From the NCBI GenBank assembly GCA_035505375.1, contig DATJQV010000006.1, positions 1-45,569 of the forward strand: a DNA stretch of 45,569 nucleotides, given 5' to 3'. A program made the position numbers and the translations under genes. This DNA comes from a bacterium (GTDB lineage: Bacteria; Hydrothermota; Tepidihabitantia; Tepidihabitantales; Tepidihabitantaceae). The notes under the pieces were generated by a model that was given only the letters and a program-made list of their open reading frames with translations, made no database searches and was not told the origin of the DNA. Each line of letters starts with the position of its first letter. Within the stretch, counting starts at the first letter, position 1. Shown here in pieces: positions 3,897-32,854 of this stretch.

Positions 3897-4024
3897 GCTC
3901 AGGAAAGGACAAAGTCATAAGCACAAAGGACTAAACAACGAGGAAAGGACGAAGTGCGAAGGACGAGACTGGCTTGTTACTTTCCTCATTGCTTTGTCCT
4001 TACGACTTTGTCCTTTGTCCTTTG
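3897..4024. repeat. Inverted word repeat (AAAGGACAAAG / CTTTGTCCTTT)
   Basis: The left half is built from variants of AAAGGACAAAG (3903-3960), the right half from CTTTGTCCTTTG (3991-4023). The halves are imperfect reverse complements and could fold into a long hairpin. A second copy of the same element lies at 6752-6874, where it forms the start of a protein, and a half copy lies near 28480-28520. Here it sits in the gap between the PEGA-like gene and fabD. Confidence 0.8.
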
Positions 4025-5550: not shown

Positions 5551-6705
5551 ATGAAGCTGAAGGCCAGACCCGAGGACTTCCAGGTCGAGGAACGCCTCAG
5601 GCTGAGGCTCAAGCGCGCCGGCGCGTACTCAATCTACCGCCTTGAGAAGCGCTTCTGGAACACGCTCGATGTCATCACCCATCTTGAGCAACGCCACGGG
5701 CTGAGGAAGCTGAGCCGCGCCGGTCTGAAGGACCGCTACGCGCAGTCAGTCCAGTTTCTCTCCATTCCGGGCCGCGGGCCGAAGCAGGTAATCGAAAAGA
5801 ACTACACGCTCAGGCTGGCGGGGATGGCCGACGAGCCGGTCAGTCGTGACGTTCTGCTCGGGAACACGTTTCGGGTGACGCTGCGTGCCCTGACCGACGA
5901 CGAGGCATCGGCAATCCTCACCGCGCTGCCCAAGGTCAACCGATTCGGGTTTCCCAACTACTATGACGAGCAGCGTCTTGGCTCGGCCCGCCACGGCCAG
6001 GGCTTCATCGCCCGTCGCCTGATCGCCGGGCACTTCAACGGCGCTCTGCGGCTCTGGCTGGGCACGCCGTCGGGAGCTGACGATGCGCAGACGCGACGCC
6101 GCAAAGCCGGAATTGAGGAACACTGGGGCGACTGGCCGCGGATTCTACAACTCGCCCCGCCAGAAGGGCAACCGGCCATCAAGCATCTGAGCATCAGCCC
6201 CAAGGACTTCAAAGGAACGGTCTACCTCATCCCTCGCAACCTGCTCGAGCTCTTCGTGAACGCGTATCAGGGATGGCTCTGGAACGAAATCATGGCCGCG
6301 CTGCTGGCGGAAATGAAGGCTGCACCCCGACAGCTCGAATACTCGCTCGGAACTCTTGCCTTCTACGACGAGCTGAGTCCGACCGACGCGAAGTTTCTCT
6401 CGAAGCTGGTTATCCCGGCGCCGGGTCCGGATGCGGAGTTTGCCAGCGAACGGGCAGCGCGGGCTACGAACCAGGTCCTTGCCCGTGAAGGTCTGTCCCT
6501 CGACCAACTGGAACTGAAGCTGCGCATCCGCGGTGTGTTCTTCAAGGCATACCCACGCAAGGCCGTGGTCACTCCCGAGCACCTGAAAGCGTCGTCGCCC
6601 GAACCCGACGACCTCTACCCCGGCCGCAAGAAGCTCTTGCTCTCGTTTTTCCTGCCACCCGGCTCGTACGCGACGATGCTGATCAAGCGCCTGTCGCTGC
6701 TGTAG
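5551..6705 (+). CDS. truD: tRNA pseudouridine(13) synthase
   Basis: Converts U13 of tRNA to pseudouridine. The 384-aa protein starts MKLKARPEDFQVEE, the standard TruD opening (PxDFxVxE). The catalytic Asp sits in SRAGLKDRYA near residue 60. NYYDEQRLGSARHGQGFIARRLIAGHFNGAL is replaced here only by description: the conserved N-x-[FY]-x-x-Q-R-[FL]-G segment lies near residue 135 and the TRUD insertion domain follows. The C-terminal third (PGRKKLLLSFFLPPGSYATMLIKR, residues about 350-380) is also family-typical. The start is adjacent to a repeat-filled gap and has no strong Shine-Dalgarno sequence. Confidence 0.93.
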   Translation: MKLKARPEDFQVEERLRLRLKRAGAYSIYRLEKRFWNTLDVITHLEQRHGLRKLSRAGLKDRYAQSVQFLSIPGRGPKQVIEKNYTLRLAGMADEPVSRDVLLGNTFRVTLRALTDDEASAILTALPKVNRFGFPNYYDEQRLGSARHGQGFIARRLIAGHFNGALRLWLGTPSGADDAQTRRRKAGIEEHWGDWPRILQLAPPEGQPAIKHLSISPKDFKGTVYLIPRNLLELFVNAYQGWLWNEIMAALLAEMKAAPRQLEYSLGTLAFYDELSPTDAKFLSKLVIPAPGPDAEFASERAARATNQVLAREGLSLDQLELKLRIRGVFFKAYPRKAVVTPEHLKASSPEPDDLYPGRKKLLLSFFLPPGSYATMLIKRLSLL

Positions 6706-6751
6706 ACAAGGGATCAAGGGATCGAGGGATAGAGCGATCGGATTTCACGGG

Positions 6752-6874
6752 CCAAAGGACAAAGTGGCAAGGACAAAGGACCAAGCAAGCACGAAAGGAA
6801 CAAGTCCCAAATCCGCGTTAGGACTTTGTGCTTTCCTCCTTGCTTTGTCCTTTGTGCTTTGTCCTTTGTACTTG
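6752..6874. repeat. Inverted word repeat that supplies a signal peptide
   Basis: The same element as 3897-4024: AAAGGACAAAG words at 6754-6790, and CTTTGTCC / CTTTCC words at 6829-6872 in reverse-complement sense. The overlapping gene starts at GTG 6764, with AAAGGA from the repeat as a plausible ribosome binding site. The right arm is read as LCAFLLALSFVLCPLYL, a good signal-peptide core. Confidence 0.8.
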
Positions 6875-9800
6875 AACGCCGCGTCCGTGCCCGGCAGCAT
6901 CAACATCGACCCGCGCCTCAACTGGTACACGCTGGAGTCCGACCACTTCGACGTTCACTTCTCCTGCCGCGGCCGACCGGATAGCTCATCGCTCCAACTG
7001 GCACGAGAGGTCTCAAGCATCGCTGAAGAGGTCCACGCCACCATTACGCCTGTCGTTGGCTGGGTACCGCGGGCAAGGACCCAGATCGTCATCGCCGACT
7101 TCTACGACTACTCAAACGGCTGGGCCGCGCCATTCCCGAACAACACCATCACCATCATCCCGACGCCGCCCGGCGGCAGCAAGACGAACGAGGGCGACTG
7201 GCTGCGCATACTCATCCTGCACGAATACTCGCACATCCTGCAGATAGACCGCGTCGCCGGCGTGATGGCCGGACTACGAAAGGTGTTCGGCCGCATCAGC
7301 ATGCCGAACGCGCTTGCGCCCGCCTGGCTGAATGAAGGCTACGCGGTCTACAACGAGACGAGGTTCACGGACTTCGGCCGCCTGCGCGGCACCGAGTACG
7401 ACATGATGGCGCGTGCGGCTGCGGATTCCAACCGATGGTTGCCCGTTGACCGTTGTGGCAACTACGATCTTCAGCGCTACCCCGACGGTGACGCTCCATA
7501 TCTCTACGGCTCCCTGCTCCACGGGTACGTCGTCAAAGCCGCGAAAACGGGGACTGTACCGCGCGTCCTCGCGCTCCGAGGGACTGTCCCCGCTTTCGCC
7601 GACTCATCCATCTGGGACCGGTACAACCGCGAGCGTTCCGCTGGTCTCCCCTACCTCGAGAACTTCTACGCGCAACAGACATTGGGCCAGAGCATCTACC
7701 ATGCGTGGAGCGAAACCCAGGCGGAAAAGATGAAGCCCGAAGCCCCATCTTCATCCTTCATCCTTCATCCCTCATCCTCTCTTCGGCGCCTCACGCACGA
7801 GGGCTATTCGACCAGCTCTCCCCTCTGGTCGCGCTCCGGGGCGGCGCTCTTCTACGTATCGAAGACCGACGAGGAATACCCGTCAATCAGGATGCTCGAC
7901 ACCGCAACCGGACAGGTGACCGTGCTGCATCGAGGCCTTGTGACCGGAAACCTGTCGCTCTCTCCTGACGGCCGCCAACTGGCATTCGCCGAGCTGAACC
8001 TTGAGGGCAACTACTACGAGTATGAGGACATCTTCACCCTCGACCTCCAGTTTGGCGTCGTCCATCAGCTTACGCACGGCCAGCGTGCCCGCGACCCCGA
8101 CTTCGCCCCGGACACATCCCTGCTGGTCTTTGTCTCCAATGACCGAGGCCAGAACGACCTGAAGCTGCTCGACCTCGCCACGGGCAAGGTGTCCCGGCTT
8201 ACGGAAACTGATGACCACACGGCCTATAGCAGCCCGCGCTTCTCACCGGGCGGCAAGTGGATCGCGGTCGCAGCCCTTCGCCCCGGCGGCTACACGGACA
8301 TCGAGCTGATTGACCGCCGCACCGGCTGGACGATTTCCGTTACCCACGACCGCGCCAATAACATGTCTCCCGCGTGGTCGAGAACCGGCAGGCTCCTGTT
8401 CTTTGTCTCGGACCGCTCGGGTGTGTTCAACCTGTACGCCTACCACCTTGCGACCGGCCGGACCTTCGCGGTCACCAATGTCCAGTATGGTGTATTCGAG
8501 CCGGCGATTTCCCCTGATAACCGCTGGATTGCGGTCACGAGCTATTCAGCCTCGGGCTATGACATCAGCACCACCGACTTTCGCTCCGCAGAGTGGCAGC
8601 TCGCCCCGGAATTCAAGGATACTCTGCCAAGGGACATGACCGAATTGTCCGACAATTCGGATCGTGTCCCGACCCGAGCCGAGGGCATGTCCCCAGCTAC
8701 CACCCACGCGCCCCAGCTCTACTACTACAACCCGTTTCCGGGCCTCCTTCCCGCCTTCTGGCTGCCCTGGCTGACGCTCGCCAATCGCCAATCGCCATTC
8801 GCCATTCGCCAATCGCTGGAAGTCGGCGCGTTCACGCTCGGCTGGGACGCCCTCCAATTCCACCAGTACCAACTGACGGCCGGGTATAGGTTCAGTCATT
8901 CTTCACCCTTCCTTTCCGCTGCCTACACTTTGAGCCGCTATCGCCCGTTCATCAGCGCCGCCGCCGACATCGACCAACACCAGCAGCAGGGCAACCTCGG
9001 CCTCGAACTCGCGTACATGGCCACCAGGCACTCCAACTGGTTGGACTTAGGCCTGACGGCGCTAAGGGACATGACCGCACTGTCGGACAGGGGCTCCTGC
9101 CAATCGTCTGACGATTCGGATCGTGTCCCGAGCGGACTATCAACGCATGCTGACCTTGACTGGACCTACTCCGACGCCCATCAGTACCGGTTCGACGTCG
9201 CGCCGGTCGAGGGCCGTGTCATCGGCCTGCACGCGGACGCACAGCAGAAGGCGTTACTGTCCGACAAGGACCTTGTCCGGGTGCTCGGCTATTGGTATCA
9301 GTACTTCGGGAATGCGCCGCAGACGTGGAGCCTGCGTTCCAAGCTGGTCGTTGGTACTGCTTTTGAAAGAGCTGCACCTGACGCCTTCGAACTCGACAAC
9401 GAACCGGGGCTGCTCGGCGTGCGGGGCTACGCATCAGAATCAGAGCCGGCGTCCACGGTACTCACGGCTGGACTCCAATTCCGTGCTCCGCTCTGGTGGG
9501 TCGAACGCGGCATCGGCACGGGCCCGCTGTTCCTTCAGAACATCAACGCCGCCGCCTTCGCCGACTTCGGCCTCACCTCAGCCCGGCCCGCCCCTGCAAA
9601 CTGCAACCTGCAAACTGCAGACTCGGGCCCGTCACGCGCCCGCATCGGCGTCGGCGCCGAACTCCGCGCCGATGTCATCCTCTCCCACCTTCTGCCCGTG
9701 AGCTTCACTGCCGGCTGCGGCTTTGGCCTCCACTGTCCGACAGGGGCCGCTGTGGCCAACCCGCTCTGGTCCTATCGTCTGTACTTCGGTGTATCAAGCT

Positions 9801-9889
9801 CGATGCTGGCAGGAATTCTCGAATCGCCACTAGCCACTCGTCAATCGCAAATCCCTTCCGGCCTCCGCCACCTCCCCGAAGCTCTCTAA
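6764..9889 (+). CDS. Secreted gluzincin peptidase / WD40-like propeller / C-terminal barrel protein
   Basis: A 1041-aa exported protein. Residues 17-41 form a signal peptide that is encoded by a dispersed repeat. A peptidase_MA-like region follows, with HEYSH (H153, E154, H157) and a downstream LNEGYAVYNE (about 188), matching the HExxH...E zinc site of gluzincins. Residues about 340-620 are PD40/TolB-type propeller blades (LSLSPDGRQLAFAELN, FSPGGKWIAVAA, ISPDNRWIAVTS). From about 690 the sequence is rich in alternating aromatic strands and GxGxELRAD-type strands, as in outer-membrane barrels. Substrate is unknown. At least six short repeat-derived segments interrupt it in frame (about residues 260-279, 321-341, 623-636, 668-686, 768-789 and 943-955), mostly in linkers. 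Start codon GTG. Confidence 0.82.
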   Translation: MARTKDQASTKGTSPKSALGLCAFLLALSFVLCPLYLNAASVPGSINIDPRLNWYTLESDHFDVHFSCRGRPDSSSLQLAREVSSIAEEVHATITPVVGWVPRARTQIVIADFYDYSNGWAAPFPNNTITIIPTPPGGSKTNEGDWLRILILHEYSHILQIDRVAGVMAGLRKVFGRISMPNALAPAWLNEGYAVYNETRFTDFGRLRGTEYDMMARAAADSNRWLPVDRCGNYDLQRYPDGDAPYLYGSLLHGYVVKAAKTGTVPRVLALRGTVPAFADSSIWDRYNRERSAGLPYLENFYAQQTLGQSIYHAWSETQAEKMKPEAPSSSFILHPSSSLRRLTHEGYSTSSPLWSRSGAALFYVSKTDEEYPSIRMLDTATGQVTVLHRGLVTGNLSLSPDGRQLAFAELNLEGNYYEYEDIFTLDLQFGVVHQLTHGQRARDPDFAPDTSLLVFVSNDRGQNDLKLLDLATGKVSRLTETDDHTAYSSPRFSPGGKWIAVAALRPGGYTDIELIDRRTGWTISVTHDRANNMSPAWSRTGRLLFFVSDRSGVFNLYAYHLATGRTFAVTNVQYGVFEPAISPDNRWIAVTSYSASGYDISTTDFRSAEWQLAPEFKDTLPRDMTELSDNSDRVPTRAEGMSPATTHAPQLYYYNPFPGLLPAFWLPWLTLANRQSPFAIRQSLEVGAFTLGWDALQFHQYQLTAGYRFSHSSPFLSAAYTLSRYRPFISAAADIDQHQQQGNLGLELAYMATRHSNWLDLGLTALRDMTALSDRGSCQSSDDSDRVPSGLSTHADLDWTYSDAHQYRFDVAPVEGRVIGLHADAQQKALLSDKDLVRVLGYWYQYFGNAPQTWSLRSKLVVGTAFERAAPDAFELDNEPGLLGVRGYASESEPASTVLTAGLQFRAPLWWVERGIGTGPLFLQNINAAAFADFGLTSARPAPANCNLQTADSGPSRARIGVGAELRADVILSHLLPVSFTAGCGFGLHCPTGAAVANPLWSYRLYFGVSSSMLAGILESPLATRQSQIPSGLRHLPEAL
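7541..7599. repeat. Palindromic element H1, copy 1, in frame in a coding gene
   Basis: Left arm GCGAAAACGGGGACTGT, centre CCGCGCGTCC...GCGCTCC, right arm GGACTGTCCCCGCTTTCGC; the arms pair over about 16 bp. It is read in the peptidase gene as KTGTVPRVLALRGTVPAF. Other copies lie at 17510-17550, 27994-28050 and 42191-42247. Confidence 0.88.
8631..8671. repeat. Palindromic element H2, copy 1, in frame
   Basis: GGGACATGACCGAATTGTCC followed by the inverse GGACAATTCGG-ATCGTGTCCCG type arm (8648-8671). Read as RDMTELSDNSDRVP. The ends GGGACA...TGTCCC define the family; other copies are at 9066-9130 and 26081-26123, with partial copies near 17974-17990 and 37952-37966. Confidence 0.82.
9066..9130. 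repeat. Palindromic element H2, copy 2, in frame
   Basis: Starts GGGACATGACCG and ends CGGATCGTGTCCCG with an enlarged centre (GTCGGACAGG...CGTCTGACG). Read in the peptidase gene as RDMTALSDRGS...DSDRVPSG. The termini match copy 1 while the centre differs. Confidence 0.78.
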
Positions 9890-12571: not shown

Positions 12572-13301
12572 TTACCTTTGACTTTCGGACGGCGTCGCGT
12601 ATGCTCGGGCATGGCGAGAATAGCGCGAGTGGTTGCGGCGCAGGTGCCCCACCATGTCGTCCAGCGTGGGAACCGGCGCCAGCCGGTCTTCTTCAGCACA
12701 GCCGACTACAAGGCGTATCTGCGAATGATGGCCGCATGGTGCGGGCAGGAGAAAGTCGAGATCTGGGCGTACTGCCTGATGCCCAACCATGTGCACCTCG
12801 TAGCAGTACCTGATACCGAACAAGGTCTTGCCCGAGCGATCGGCGAGGCCCACCGTCGGTACACAGTCCGAGTGAATTAGCGTGAGAACTGGCGCGGTTA
12901 CCTCTGGCAGGGACGTTTCTCATCATACCCGCTCGATGAGCAGTACCTGCTGGCAGCGGTCCGCTACGTAGAACTGAATCCGGTGCGGGCCGGTCTGGTC
13001 GAGCGGCCATGGCAGTATCCCTGGTCCAGCGCGGCGGCTCATGTACGGGGTCGCGACGATACACTGGTGAAGGTGAAGCCGATGCTGAACCGGGTAGAGG
13101 ACTGGCGCGAGTATCTCAGTGGCGAGTAGGACAGCACCGACCTGGAACTTATCCGACGTCACGCGCGCAACGGCCGTCCCTTGGGGAACAGCGACTTTGT
13201 AGAATCGCTCGAGGTCAGGACTGGCCGAACCCTGGTTCCACTCAAGCGCGGACCCAAGCCGCGGCAACGGACTTGAGATAAGTACTGTGTCCCCGAAATA
13301 G
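12531..13301. mobile_element. Decayed REP-associated transposase (RAYT) element with terminal inverted repeats
   Basis: The left end carries two copies of GGGGATTTCGGGGACACAAT (from about 12530 and 12547); the right end (13276-13301) carries the inverse, AAGTACTGTGTCCCCGAAAT. Between them lies a transposase pseudogene. Such GGGGACA inverted ends flanking a single RAYT gene are the standard arrangement. It appears to have landed near the 5' end of the secreted-protein gene beginning at 12422. Confidence 0.75.
12611..13276 (+). pseudogene. REP-associated tyrosine transposase (TnpA_REP/Y1 family) with two stops
   Basis: The frame begins MARIARVVAAQVPHHVVQRG and contains the HUH-type motif MPNHVHLVAVP (about residue 60), then HRRYTVRVN, a TAG at 12878-12880, and continues in the same frame with WRGYLWQGRFSSYPLD, YVELNPVRAGLV and WPWSSA-like WQYPWSSAAAH. 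A second TAG follows YLSGE at about 13127, and the frame finishes KRGPKPRQRT at 13276. All conserved blocks of a Y1 transposase are present in one frame, so the gene was lost by point mutation rather than by frameshift or deletion. Stop readthrough is an alternative but the two stops are not in a special context. Confidence 0.85.
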
Positions 13302-16561: not shown

Positions 16562-17266
16562 ATGCGCATCGTCGGCTTCACTGAGACGTCGCTGCTTGAC
16601 TGGCACGGCCGGATCGCCGCCGTCCTCTGGATCGGCGGCTGCGATTACTCATGCCCGTTCTGCCACAACGCACGGATCGCCAACGACGAGCCGGCGCTGG
16701 CCGAGGTGCCTTGGGACGAAATCGCCCGGACCCTCCGCCGCAAACGCGACTGGTATGACGGGGTTGTCCTCACGGGCGGCGAACCGCTCATGCATCCGGA
16801 AGTCTTCGAACTATGTCGGCTTCTGAACGACCTCGGACAACAGGTAAAAATCGACACCAACGGCTCGTTTCCCTATGCGCTCAAGACCTTGGTCGATTCG
16901 AAGCTCGTACACTCAGTCGCGATGGATGTGAAAGCGCCACTCGATTCCCGCTATTCAAAGGCGGCCGGACGGCACGTGGACGTCGCCCCGCTGCTCCGGA
17001 CCATTCGGCTGGTTCTGGAATCCGGCATCGAGCACGAGTTCCGCTGCACGCTCGTGCCCGGCCTCATCGACCCAGAGGATATCACGACCATCGCCGGGGC
17101 GGTCAAGGGAGCGCAGGCCGTCGCCCTGCAGGAATACCTGCCCAAGCAAGCACGGGTCACCGGTTTTGGCGGGACGAAGTCCTACACGCGGGCCGAGGTC
17201 GAAGCGATGGCCGAGGTCTTGAAGTCCTGCGTCAAACAGGTCAGGATCCGCGGCAGTTTCTCCTGA
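16562..17266 (+). CDS. Radical SAM activating enzyme of the anaerobic ribonucleotide reductase type (NrdG2-like)
   Basis: 234 aa. C27, C31 and C34 in GGCDYSCPFCHN form the CX3CX2C site for the 4Fe-4S cluster; TGGEPLMHPE binds S-adenosylmethionine, and IDTNGSFP and AMDVKAPL follow as in this family. The family generates the glycyl radical of class III ribonucleotide reductase and marks an anaerobic lifestyle. Neither nrdD nor another glycyl-radical enzyme gene is in the window, so the partner is not known; queE-type enzymes are a more distant alternative. The 3' end overlaps lipB convergently by 85 nt. Confidence 0.85.
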   Translation: MRIVGFTETSLLDWHGRIAAVLWIGGCDYSCPFCHNARIANDEPALAEVPWDEIARTLRRKRDWYDGVVLTGGEPLMHPEVFELCRLLNDLGQQVKIDTNGSFPYALKTLVDSKLVHSVAMDVKAPLDSRYSKAAGRHVDVAPLLRTIRLVLESGIEHEFRCTLVPGLIDPEDITTIAGAVKGAQAVALQEYLPKQARVTGFGGTKSYTRAEVEAMAEVLKSCVKQVRIRGSFS

Positions 17267-18051
17267 AACTCGACTCCGAACGCGCGTTCAAACCCGGCAA
17301 CGACCGCTGACCGTACGCGCGCGTCGTCAGTGACCCCACCCTCGGAACTCACTGAAGTCATGACTACGCCGGGCATGCCACACGGATTCATCAGCCGGAA
17401 GAAGTCCAGGTCCACCGTCACGTTCAAGGCAAACCCGTGAAAGGTGACCCGGCGCTTAACCGCAATGCCGATAGATGCAATCTTCCGTTCCCTGCCAGTC
17501 GACAGTGTTGAAAATGGGGACAGTCCCATGGAGGTACAGTCCCCATTTTCAGGCTTCCGCTCTTCGCACCAGACACCGATGTAGCCCGGTCTGAGTCCTG
17601 ACTTGACTCCGAGCTCGGCCAGTGCCGAGACCAGCGCGGCCTCGACCCGCTCGACGAAACGGCGCACGCCGGCCAGTCCTGCCTCCAGCTTGAACACGGG
17701 ATAGCCGATGAGCTGGCCCGGGCCGTGAAACGTTACGTCCCCCCCGCGTTCGATACGGTACAGACTGACGCCACGTCGCGCGAGCTCGGCCTCACTCACG
17801 AGCAGGTTTGAGGCCTTCGCCGACCGGCCGAGCGTGATGACCGGCGGGTGCTCAAGCAGCAGGAGGATATCGGGTATCTTGTCCTCGGCGCGAAGCCGAC
17901 ACAGCTCGCGTTGCAGTTCTAACGCCCGGCCGTATTCCACGCGACCCAGACTTAGCACAGCGGCGGGGGCCTTCGGGACACGATCCCGAACCAGCGAAAC
18001 CACAGATGGACACTGATTAACACAGATTAGTTTCGGAACATCAGTGTTCAT
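17182..18051 (-). CDS. lipB: Octanoyl-[acyl carrier protein]:protein octanoyltransferase
   Basis: Attaches octanoate to lipoyl domains, the first step of lipoate synthesis. ERGGDVTFHGPGQLIGYP, RKIASIGIAVKRRVTFHG (catalytic Lys) and NPCGMPGVVMTS (catalytic Cys) are all present. Two oddities come from repeats. The first 31 residues are encoded by an ACAGATGGACACTGATTAAC word repeat plus part of an H2-like hairpin, so a GTG at 17958 (VLSLGRVEYGRAL) is the more natural start. About 25 residues (KPENGDCTSMGLSPFSTLST region, about 165-187) are inserted directly before RKIASIG by the palindrome at 17510-17550. The last 20 or so residues overlap the opposing gene. It follows lpdA in a minus-strand operon, consistent with lipoyl metabolism. 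Confidence 0.9.
   Translation of the reverse strand: MNTDVPKLICVNQCPSVVSLVRDRVPKAPAAVLSLGRVEYGRALELQRELCRLRAEDKIPDILLLLEHPPVITLGRSAKASNLLVSEAELARRGVSLYRIERGGDVTFHGPGQLIGYPVFKLEAGLAGVRRFVERVEAALVSALAELGVKSGLRPGYIGVWCEERKPENGDCTSMGLSPFSTLSTGRERKIASIGIAVKRRVTFHGFALNVTVDLDFFRLMNPCGMPGVVMTSVSSEGGVTDDARVRSAVVAGFERAFGVEFQEKLPRILTCLTQDFKTSAIASTSARV
17510..17550. repeat. Palindromic element H1, copy 4 (short form), inside lipB
   Basis: GAAAATGGGGACAGTCCC...GTACAGTCCCCATTTTC: perfect terminal arms of 12 bp or more around a short centre. Its ends match the longer H1 copies; the centre is different. It is read in frame in lipB. Confidence 0.85.
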
Positions 18052-18070
18052 CCGTGTTTATCCGTGGTTG
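18001..18070. repeat. Inverted word repeat at the lipB 5' end
   Basis: CCACAGATGGACACTGATT (18000-18018) is answered by ATCAGTGTTCATCCGTG...ATCCGTGGTT (18040-18067). Relatives occur at 41398-41428 (CCACGGATGAACACGGATG). It spans the gap between lpdA and lipB and extends into the annotated lipB start. Confidence 0.75.
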
Positions 18071-29868: not shown

Positions 29869-31441
<1,573 letters not shown>

Positions 31442-31468
31442 CTTACTGCCTCCTGTCTGCGTAACCCA

Positions 31469-32854
31469 TCACCTCAGCTTGACGACCTTGGCGCGGAGGC
31501 CTTTGCCGGCTTCGATGACATAGACGCCGGGCGGGAGCGGCTTGCCGGATTCGTCCCGTCCGTCCCAGACCCAACGATTCTGGCCGGCCAGAATCTGAGC
31601 TTGCCTGACCAGCCTTCCGTCCTGCGCATACACGCGCGCAAGGTCGCCGCCTTTCAAAGGAGTACTCCTTGCGACCGTCACGCTCCGACTGAACGGATTC
31701 GGCGTGACGCTCAGCGCCTCGTTGAATCCGGGACGCGGCGACTGCGGCTCAGCTATCCCAGCCGATGTGTCTCTAATGACATATACGTAACGCGTATTCC
31801 AATGACCCAGATACAACCTGTTGTGACGCGGAACAAGGGCGAACACGAGTGGGTAGTCTCCCACCTGCAGAGTCGCAAGTCTCCGAGTGCCGTCGCCGGT
31901 GACAACAAATACCTCATCGGTCAGGTCTGACGCGCAGTATAGCAATCCACTTCCACTGGAATAGTCGAGATCCCGAGCTCTCTGTCCTGTAGTGACAGTA
32001 GCCACCACAGAGTCCCGCCGCGCTGACACGGTCGCCACGTAATCACCACTGCTCGTAAACGCGCTCAGGTAGACCAAGCCGTCTTCCTCGTTGCCCCTTG
32101 CACATCTCACCTCTGCGTTGCCCGTTAAGGGAATGTGCGCGACGATCGTGTCAGAAAACCCGTCAATCGCTATGCACTGTCCGTATGTCCCGGCGCTATA
32201 GAGCTTGTCCGCGCTCTTGCAGTAGTACCCGGCGTTCGGAGTACCGCCGACGTGCACCGTCCCGATGACCTGGTTGGTCGTCATGTTGACTATGGACACG
32301 GTCCCGTCCTCGGTGTTCAATACGTACAACTTCCGCCGCACAGTGCTGGCATACATGCTCACGGGGCAGGCGCCAACTGCAATGTACATCAACAATGAAT
32401 CGGTCGCGCAGTCAACCACAGCGACGCTATCTGTCGTCTGGCAGCTAACGTACATGCGATCGGTGATCGGGTCCCAGACCGGCAAAGTCGCACCGGGCAT
32501 GGGGATGCTCTTGATCCGAGTGTGGGTAACGCCGTCAACAACCAGAAGCGAATCATCCGCCTGCGGAGAACAGATAAATGAGCAGTATGCCTTGTCGTCC
32601 GATGAGTCATATCCGACCACGAATGCGTATTCTAGCCGGAAGCTGCCGACTACCTTGTCGCTGTCGCAGGAAATCGCGAAGAACAGCCCATCATCGCTGG
32701 CACCGTAGAGTACATCCTCGCGCGAGTTGTAGACCAAGCTGCCTACAAACCTACCGCCAACGTCAATCGAATCCTCAACGTACTGCGCCTGCCCTGCCGC
32801 TGCAGCGATGCCGAGTGCAGCAGCGGTAGCCAGCAAACCGTGTCTGAGTTTCAC
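31469..32854 (-). CDS. Secreted YncE-like beta-propeller protein with sorting tail (paralogue 1)
   Basis: 461 aa, the same length and layout as the next gene: signal peptide MKLRHGLLATAAALGIAAAA, YVEDSIDVGG, blades with PVWDPITDRMYVSCQTTDS and VAVVDCATDSLLMYIAVG, and the tail SVTPNPFSRSVTVARSTPLK...RAKVVKLR. The two genes are most alike in the sorting tail, even at DNA level, and less so in the blades, which suggests tandem duplication followed by divergence of the exposed part or homogenisation of the tail. GTG start; promoter at 32906-32878. Confidence 0.88.
   Translation of the reverse strand: MKLRHGLLATAAALGIAAAAGQAQYVEDSIDVGGRFVGSLVYNSREDVLYGASDDGLFFAISCDSDKVVGSFRLEYAFVVGYDSSDDKAYCSFICSPQADDSLLVVDGVTHTRIKSIPMPGATLPVWDPITDRMYVSCQTTDSVAVVDCATDSLLMYIAVGACPVSMYASTVRRKLYVLNTEDGTVSIVNMTTNQVIGTVHVGGTPNAGYYCKSADKLYSAGTYGQCIAIDGFSDTIVAHIPLTGNAEVRCARGNEEDGLVYLSAFTSSGDYVATVSARRDSVVATVTTGQRARDLDYSSGSGLLYCASDLTDEVFVVTGDGTRRLATLQVGDYPLVFALVPRHNRLYLGHWNTRYVYVIRDTSAGIAEPQSPRPGFNEALSVTPNPFSRSVTVARSTPLKGGDLARVYAQDGRLVRQAQILAGQNRWVWDGRDESGKPLPPGVYVIEAGKGLRAKVVKLR

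Follow-up and report, generated by a model that had tools for sequence, protein, structure and literature searches.

A dispersed inverted repeat supplies both the start region and the hydrophobic core of what is very probably the signal peptide of a large exported protein in an uncultured candidate division WOR-3 bacterium (genome G000). The window, by which we mean the whole stretch of 45,569 nucleotides that was analysed (contig C6), belongs to a metagenome-assembled genome that was sampled as 800 kb of stretches plus the window (845 kb). We consider it likely that a copy of the repeat entered an already occupied gap between truD and the gene for the exported protein and, by virtue of its composition, replaced the start region and the core of an earlier signal peptide.

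The inverted repeat and its dispersed family

An inverted-repeat scan of 445 kb of G000 returned 62 inverted repeats with a score of at least 15, compared with none in shuffled sequence. The highest score, 30, was obtained for the repeat at 6755-6873 of the window, whose 56-nt arms (purine-rich 5' arm, 6755-6810; pyrimidine-rich 3' arm, 6818-6873; plus strand) pair at 43 of 56 positions. The original prediction had described the element at 6752-6874 as a sibling of an intergenic copy at 3897-4024, and this relationship holds: with limits refined to 6755-6873 and 3904-4023 (plus strand), both belong to the same dispersed family, referred to here as the AAAGGAC family. A profile search located 27 copies of its unit of ~125 bp in the 845 kb of G000, none of them classed inside a called gene. 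The family word CTTTGTCCTTTG occurs 46 times in the G000 genome, against a single occurrence of a reversed control; exact copies number 6 to 71 per genome in the genus, 10 in G007 and 0 to 3 in other relatives. In its length (within about 100-200 bp), inverted-repeat structure, dispersal and strong stem-loop, the family resembles the MITE-like elements of the RPE, RU and NEMIS class. A literature search on WOR-3 repeats found nothing relevant.

Start codon and predicted signal peptide

As originally predicted, an AAAGGA sequence (6754-6759, plus strand) in the 5' arm precedes a GTG codon (6764-6766), and it would serve as a Shine-Dalgarno (SD)-like site. This GTG opens a frame of 1041 amino acids that runs to 9889, and is the only ATG, GTG or TTG in frame upstream of the hydrophobic core. 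Judged by reading and hydropathy, the 41 codons from it (6764-6886, plus strand) encode a predicted signal peptide, VARTKDQASTKGTSPKSALG-LCAFLLALSFVLCPLYL-NAAS, with the layout of a Sec signal peptide: a charged n-region with R3, K5, K11 and K16, encoded by the 5' arm, the hydrophobic core LCAFLLALSFVLCPLYL, and NAAS. The core had been expected to be a translated repeat arm, and its codons (6824-6874) indeed coincide almost exactly with the 3' arm. All codons from 6764 to 6873 fall within the repeat copy. The further expectation that the mature protein begins right after the repeat is correct as to the close adjacency of the two, but NAAS (6875-6886) lies outside the repeat and intervenes; it is probably a remnant of the old signal peptide. 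Among 12 aligned rows of the family, GTG at the position of 6764 is unique to the window copy. An in-frame TAA at 6782, where the window copy has CAA, is present in five of the other 11 rows, which represent four distinct copies because L050 and L156 are the same copy. The dN/dS value at this signal-peptide site is 0.63, on few changes, and values at one further locus (case B) range from 0.18 to 0.97, neither being informative.

The predicted mature protein begins with VPGS (6887-9889, plus strand) and contains a TolB/PD40 propeller, a HEYSH motif (7220-7234, plus strand) and a conserved C-terminal part. Given this propeller, the HEYSH motif and the N-terminal signal peptides of the orthologues, export is expected. 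The mature part also holds in-frame inserts of other repeats: a palindrome of the GGGGACTGTACC type (7541-7609, plus strand), absent from five aligned orthologues, and a word repeat of the CAATCGCCATTCGCC type (8780-8816, plus strand), specific to G000 in the alignment. A further in-frame repeat insert at 8643-8677 is likewise specific to G000 when compared with five orthologues.

Elsewhere in the window, a lipB-like gene (17182-18003, minus strand) contains an in-frame GGGGACTGTACC...GGGACTGTCCCC palindrome at 17508-17551 (minus strand), which adds roughly 20 residues (KPENGDCTSMGLSPFSTL). A AACCACAGATGGACAC / GTGTTTATCCGTGGTT inverted repeat (17998-18069, minus strand) overlaps the 5' end of the same open reading frame. 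The start annotated for this frame, ATG 18051, therefore falls within the repeat, and translation probably begins further downstream. At 30056-32854 (minus strand), two similar tandem open reading frames of 461 amino acids, with segments 76-87% identical, represent a recent gene duplication.

Orthologues and the direction of change

The upstream neighbour of the gene at every orthologous locus of the genus is truD, encoding tRNA pseudouridine synthase D (5551-6705, plus strand in the window; Pfam TruD, E = 1.2e-59, and orthologue neighbourhoods). Comparison of the regions upstream of the orthologues shows that the start of the gene coincides with or adjoins the truD stop in the congener G004 and in representatives of other genera (such as G015, G010, G012, G006, G007, G016 and G025), where the signal peptide is short and repeat-free. 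Judged from these states, the ancestral gene began at the truD stop. The original prediction had offered two histories, de novo origin of an export signal from repeat DNA or replacement of the original one. The first is not supported because orthologues carry older, repeat-free signal peptides, while the second agrees with the orthologue states. None of these repeat-free orthologues shares the signal peptide of the window gene, which the original prediction had named as a refuting observation; theirs is a different one.

Replacement nevertheless appears more layered than the single event that had been envisaged. In G003 and G005, an inverted repeat of a different, GGGATC type, with nearly the same loop, lies between truD and the gene, and a GTG after GAGGGATCGA in this repeat yields signal peptides of 28 residues each that align without gaps. 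In these two genomes the start and the leading part of the signal peptide come from the repeat, which is followed by the old leucine-rich core. The spacers of G003 and G005 are 89% identical, compared with 76% for truD and 80% for the mature region. In G001, the GGGATC repeat has another repeat-like sequence nested inside it. Of the GGGATC repeat, which G003 and G005 have in full, G000 retains the 5' arm alone (AAGGGATCAAGGGATCGAGGGATAGAG, 6709-6735, plus strand); behind this arm stands the AAAGGAC repeat, encoding the whole core. The gene would accordingly have passed from a plain peptide, through one repeat, to a relic plus a second repeat. The mature-protein tree, (G004,G005),(G000,(G001,G003)), implies either that G004 lost its repeat cleanly or that the others gained theirs more than once. 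As a separate observation, GGGATC-type elements (L064-L093) often end their 5' arm in GAGGGATCGAGTG, and so carry a built-in SD-like GAGG and a well-spaced GTG.

The signal peptide of the G017 orthologue of the window gene is made by another repeat, of TTTTGCC words, and TTTTGCCTTTTG has eight exact copies in G017 but none in two congeners with plain signal peptides. In G023, another repeat probably makes the signal peptide of the orthologue. The G017 repeat, and probably that of G023, would have been recruited independently of the window copy.

Repeat-derived signal peptides at other genes

The same pattern recurs at a second gene of G000, L103:5915 (no known family), whose signal peptide, MTKGENWVFLLRTCFVLCTLSFGLSPAAQ, consists of an entire AAAGGAC repeat, whereas five congeners have plain signal peptides such as MKRAVAALLLVACALAAAQ; by this comparison it is a clean replacement. 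These two genes also bear on the best surviving alternative, in which repeats in 5' gaps merely lengthen or abut signal peptides that continue to work through their old core, with no recruitment. Such passengers account well for G003 and G005, where the leucine-rich core still stands behind the repeat, and for the 19 of 27 family copies that lie between genes, or 5' of one, and overlap no hydrophobic stretch. In the window gene and in L103:5915, however, the whole core lies inside the repeat and the old core is gone, and we regard this alternative as improbable.

Another conserved case is L103:4505, a SurA-like chaperone (peptidyl-prolyl isomerase); the SurA family acts outside the cytoplasm. 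A signal peptide derived from the AAAGGAC family is common to G000, G004 and G005, and in G000 its palindrome has decayed while the amino acids are retained. Two informative pairs gave dN/dS values of 0.14 and 0.19 over 25 codons, and the close pair G004-G005 gave 2.47 on seven changes.

Decay of a palindrome with retention of its amino-acid pattern argues against a second alternative, in which the repeat serves mainly as an RNA or DNA element, such as a translation-control hairpin or an mRNA stabiliser, with incidental coding capacity. The strong stem predicted for the repeat at 6755-6873 (−67.8 kcal/mol, z = −3.6) covers both the SD-like site and the start codon, which are separated by a short spacing of 4 nt, and comparable stems are predicted at the starts of the window-gene orthologues in G001, G003 and G005 and of L103:5915. 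As the SD-like site and the GTG sit in this stem, expression of the window gene may be low or controlled. The orthologues differ in their repeat types and stems, however, and we find a chiefly structural role even harder to credit than the passenger reading, although the RNA-element and coding roles could coexist.

Recruitment as a signal peptide is also read in further genes. In L148 (DUF3857/transglutaminase), whose signal peptide is likewise formed by the AAAGGAC family, a core of the CTTTGTCC type is common to five species, while the n-region words are CAGAATTC and TGCAAAA in G000, TGCAAAA in G004, GGATTC in G003 and G002, and GGGTTC in G005. In the PorV/PorQ-like L111, the repeat is of the GGATTC type in G000; G003 and G004 have GCTTGTGGCTTG words, G002 shows traces, and the signal peptide is plain in G001 and G005. 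The TPR protein L143 carries a repeat-derived signal peptide, MKKQHRLRFLVLCTLSFVLAAHA. In G018, a distant WOR-3 relative from another family, TTTGGAATTTGGGGTTTGGGG words in L176 translate as WNLGLVILILFGFWNLGFGAF, apparently another repeat-derived signal peptide. Two candidates, L105:2052 (permease-like) and L107:13939 (ATPase-like), were set aside since their natural N-terminus seems to begin after the repeat.

Repeat words occupy 1.5% of called coding bases and 5.6% of non-coding bases. Repeats overlap 4 of 238 N-terminal hydrophobic segments and none of 317 internal ones, an enrichment against internal hydrophobic segments only; relative to coding DNA in general, no genome-wide enrichment of repeats in signal-peptide coding was observed.

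The possibility that the structure is an artefact, through mis-assembly or a start further downstream that leaves the repeat untranslated, can be given very little weight. In its favour, the assembly is metagenomic, with an estimated contamination of 4.7%, and 6866 is the start chosen by a simple coding-score caller. Against it, four assemblies of the genus have repeats in the gap behind truD, the reading frame that follows continues unbroken over 1000 codons and aligns with five relatives, and a protein initiated at 6866 would lack the signal peptide that its orthologues have.

A latent signal-peptide property

All six reading frames of 13 other family members were translated; we defined a hydrophobic window as 12 residues with a mean hydropathy of at least 1.8, and a signal-peptide-like translation as a net-positive stretch followed by such a window. 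Hydrophobic windows were present in 63% of strand-frames, compared with 4% for dinucleotide shuffles and 5% for random genome segments, and signal-peptide-like translations in 49%, compared with 2% for each control. The property does not extend to all such inverted repeats: 24 other repeats gave 5%, against the 49% of the AAAGGAC family.

The composition of the arms offers an explanation. The purine-rich 5' arm would be read as Lys, Arg, Asp, Ser and Gln codons, purine codons in general specifying K, R, D, E, S and G, and would provide the n-region together with the SD-like AAAGGA; the pyrimidine-rich 3' arm would be read as L, F, V, S, C and P in every frame, and would provide the h-region. 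Because the arms are reverse complements, the order of purines then pyrimidines is the same on either strand, and because this composition gives charged and then hydrophobic residues, the repeat is usable as a signal peptide. At the window gene, a copy of ~125 bp would have come into the short gap behind truD, where the genus already had another repeat, and displaced the start region and the core of the earlier signal peptide, whose c-region (NAAS) was kept. We infer insertion rather than gene conversion, initiation at the GTG, cleavage after NAAS and export by the ordinary Sec route. A purine/pyrimidine repeat upstream of an exported gene is then likely to become a signal peptide; at other sites, like most copies, it remains a mere intergenic palindrome.

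More tentatively, and with slightly less than even confidence, we propose that the purine/pyrimidine repeats of the WOR-3 lineage are portable, orientation-independent cassettes of start and signal peptide, whose turnover regularly rewrites the signal peptides of conserved exported proteins, with n-region words swapped and the core kept.

Comparison with known systems

A precedent for a repeat-derived bacterial signal peptide exists in Yersinia: in YPO1552, the small palindromic RU-2/YPAL repeat contributes codons 1-30 to the predicted signal peptide, and the signal peptides of YPO1552 homologues from other genera are unrelated (Delihas 2007, PMC2759123). The window gene is similar in that its signal-peptide codons lie in a dispersed repeat and its orthologues in G004 and other genera have unrelated, repeat-free ones, as is also the case for L103:5915. 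YPO1552, however, represents one locus, a small protein of 144 amino acids and one repeat family, whereas WOR-3 presents several unrelated repeat families, several conserved exported proteins, before-and-after pairs within one genus, convergence at a single gene and a general explanation from composition. It is this multi-family, multi-protein, convergent form, with its compositional reason, that is new here.

The Rickettsia palindromic elements (RPE) are dispersed palindromes of 105-146 bp that occur in frame within protein-coding genes (Ogata 2000; review, PMC2229807). Dispersed palindromes in frame, including the internal inserts of other repeats in the window open reading frame, are a shared feature, but RPE are tolerated inserts inside proteins, while the WOR-3 repeats are N-terminal and read as a targeting signal; the likeness drawn here is one of organization.

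Short dispersed palindromes and the presence of Y1 transposases in the genus (diverse, with 4 to 7 matches per genome) recall REP/RAYT systems. A RAYT/Y1 enzyme was rejected as the mover of the AAAGGAC family, as the flanks do not match: when the element was sought in the flanks of four Y1 loci and of the window copy, a different word of the GGGGACAC/GTCCCC type was found. The Y1 (RAYT-like) transposase of the window (12647-12973) has an in-frame TAG and GGGGACACAATACTTAATT and GTCCCCGAAAT words on its flanks, and is probably decayed.

Implications

Signal peptides depend on composition more than on sequence, so that unrelated DNA can serve. Kaiser, Preuss, Grisafi and Botstein reportedly found in 1987 that random sequences serve as export signals; the WOR-3 sequences differ in being natural repeats whose arm order favours an n-then-h layout. 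The signal peptides of relatives barely align, and to our knowledge their turnover has seldom been seen. Here, one gene in a genus displays a series (plain; one repeat; relic plus second repeat), accompanied by clear replacements elsewhere, and there is a simple chemical reason why AAAGGAC-family repeat DNA would be pre-adapted as an export signal. With these natural before-and-after pairs, the long-standing idea that export signals evolve easily can be put to the test. They are also a caution for annotation, since an N-terminus that looks like a repeat can be truly coding. The reuse of repeats would be one way in which export tags can be rebuilt in evolution.
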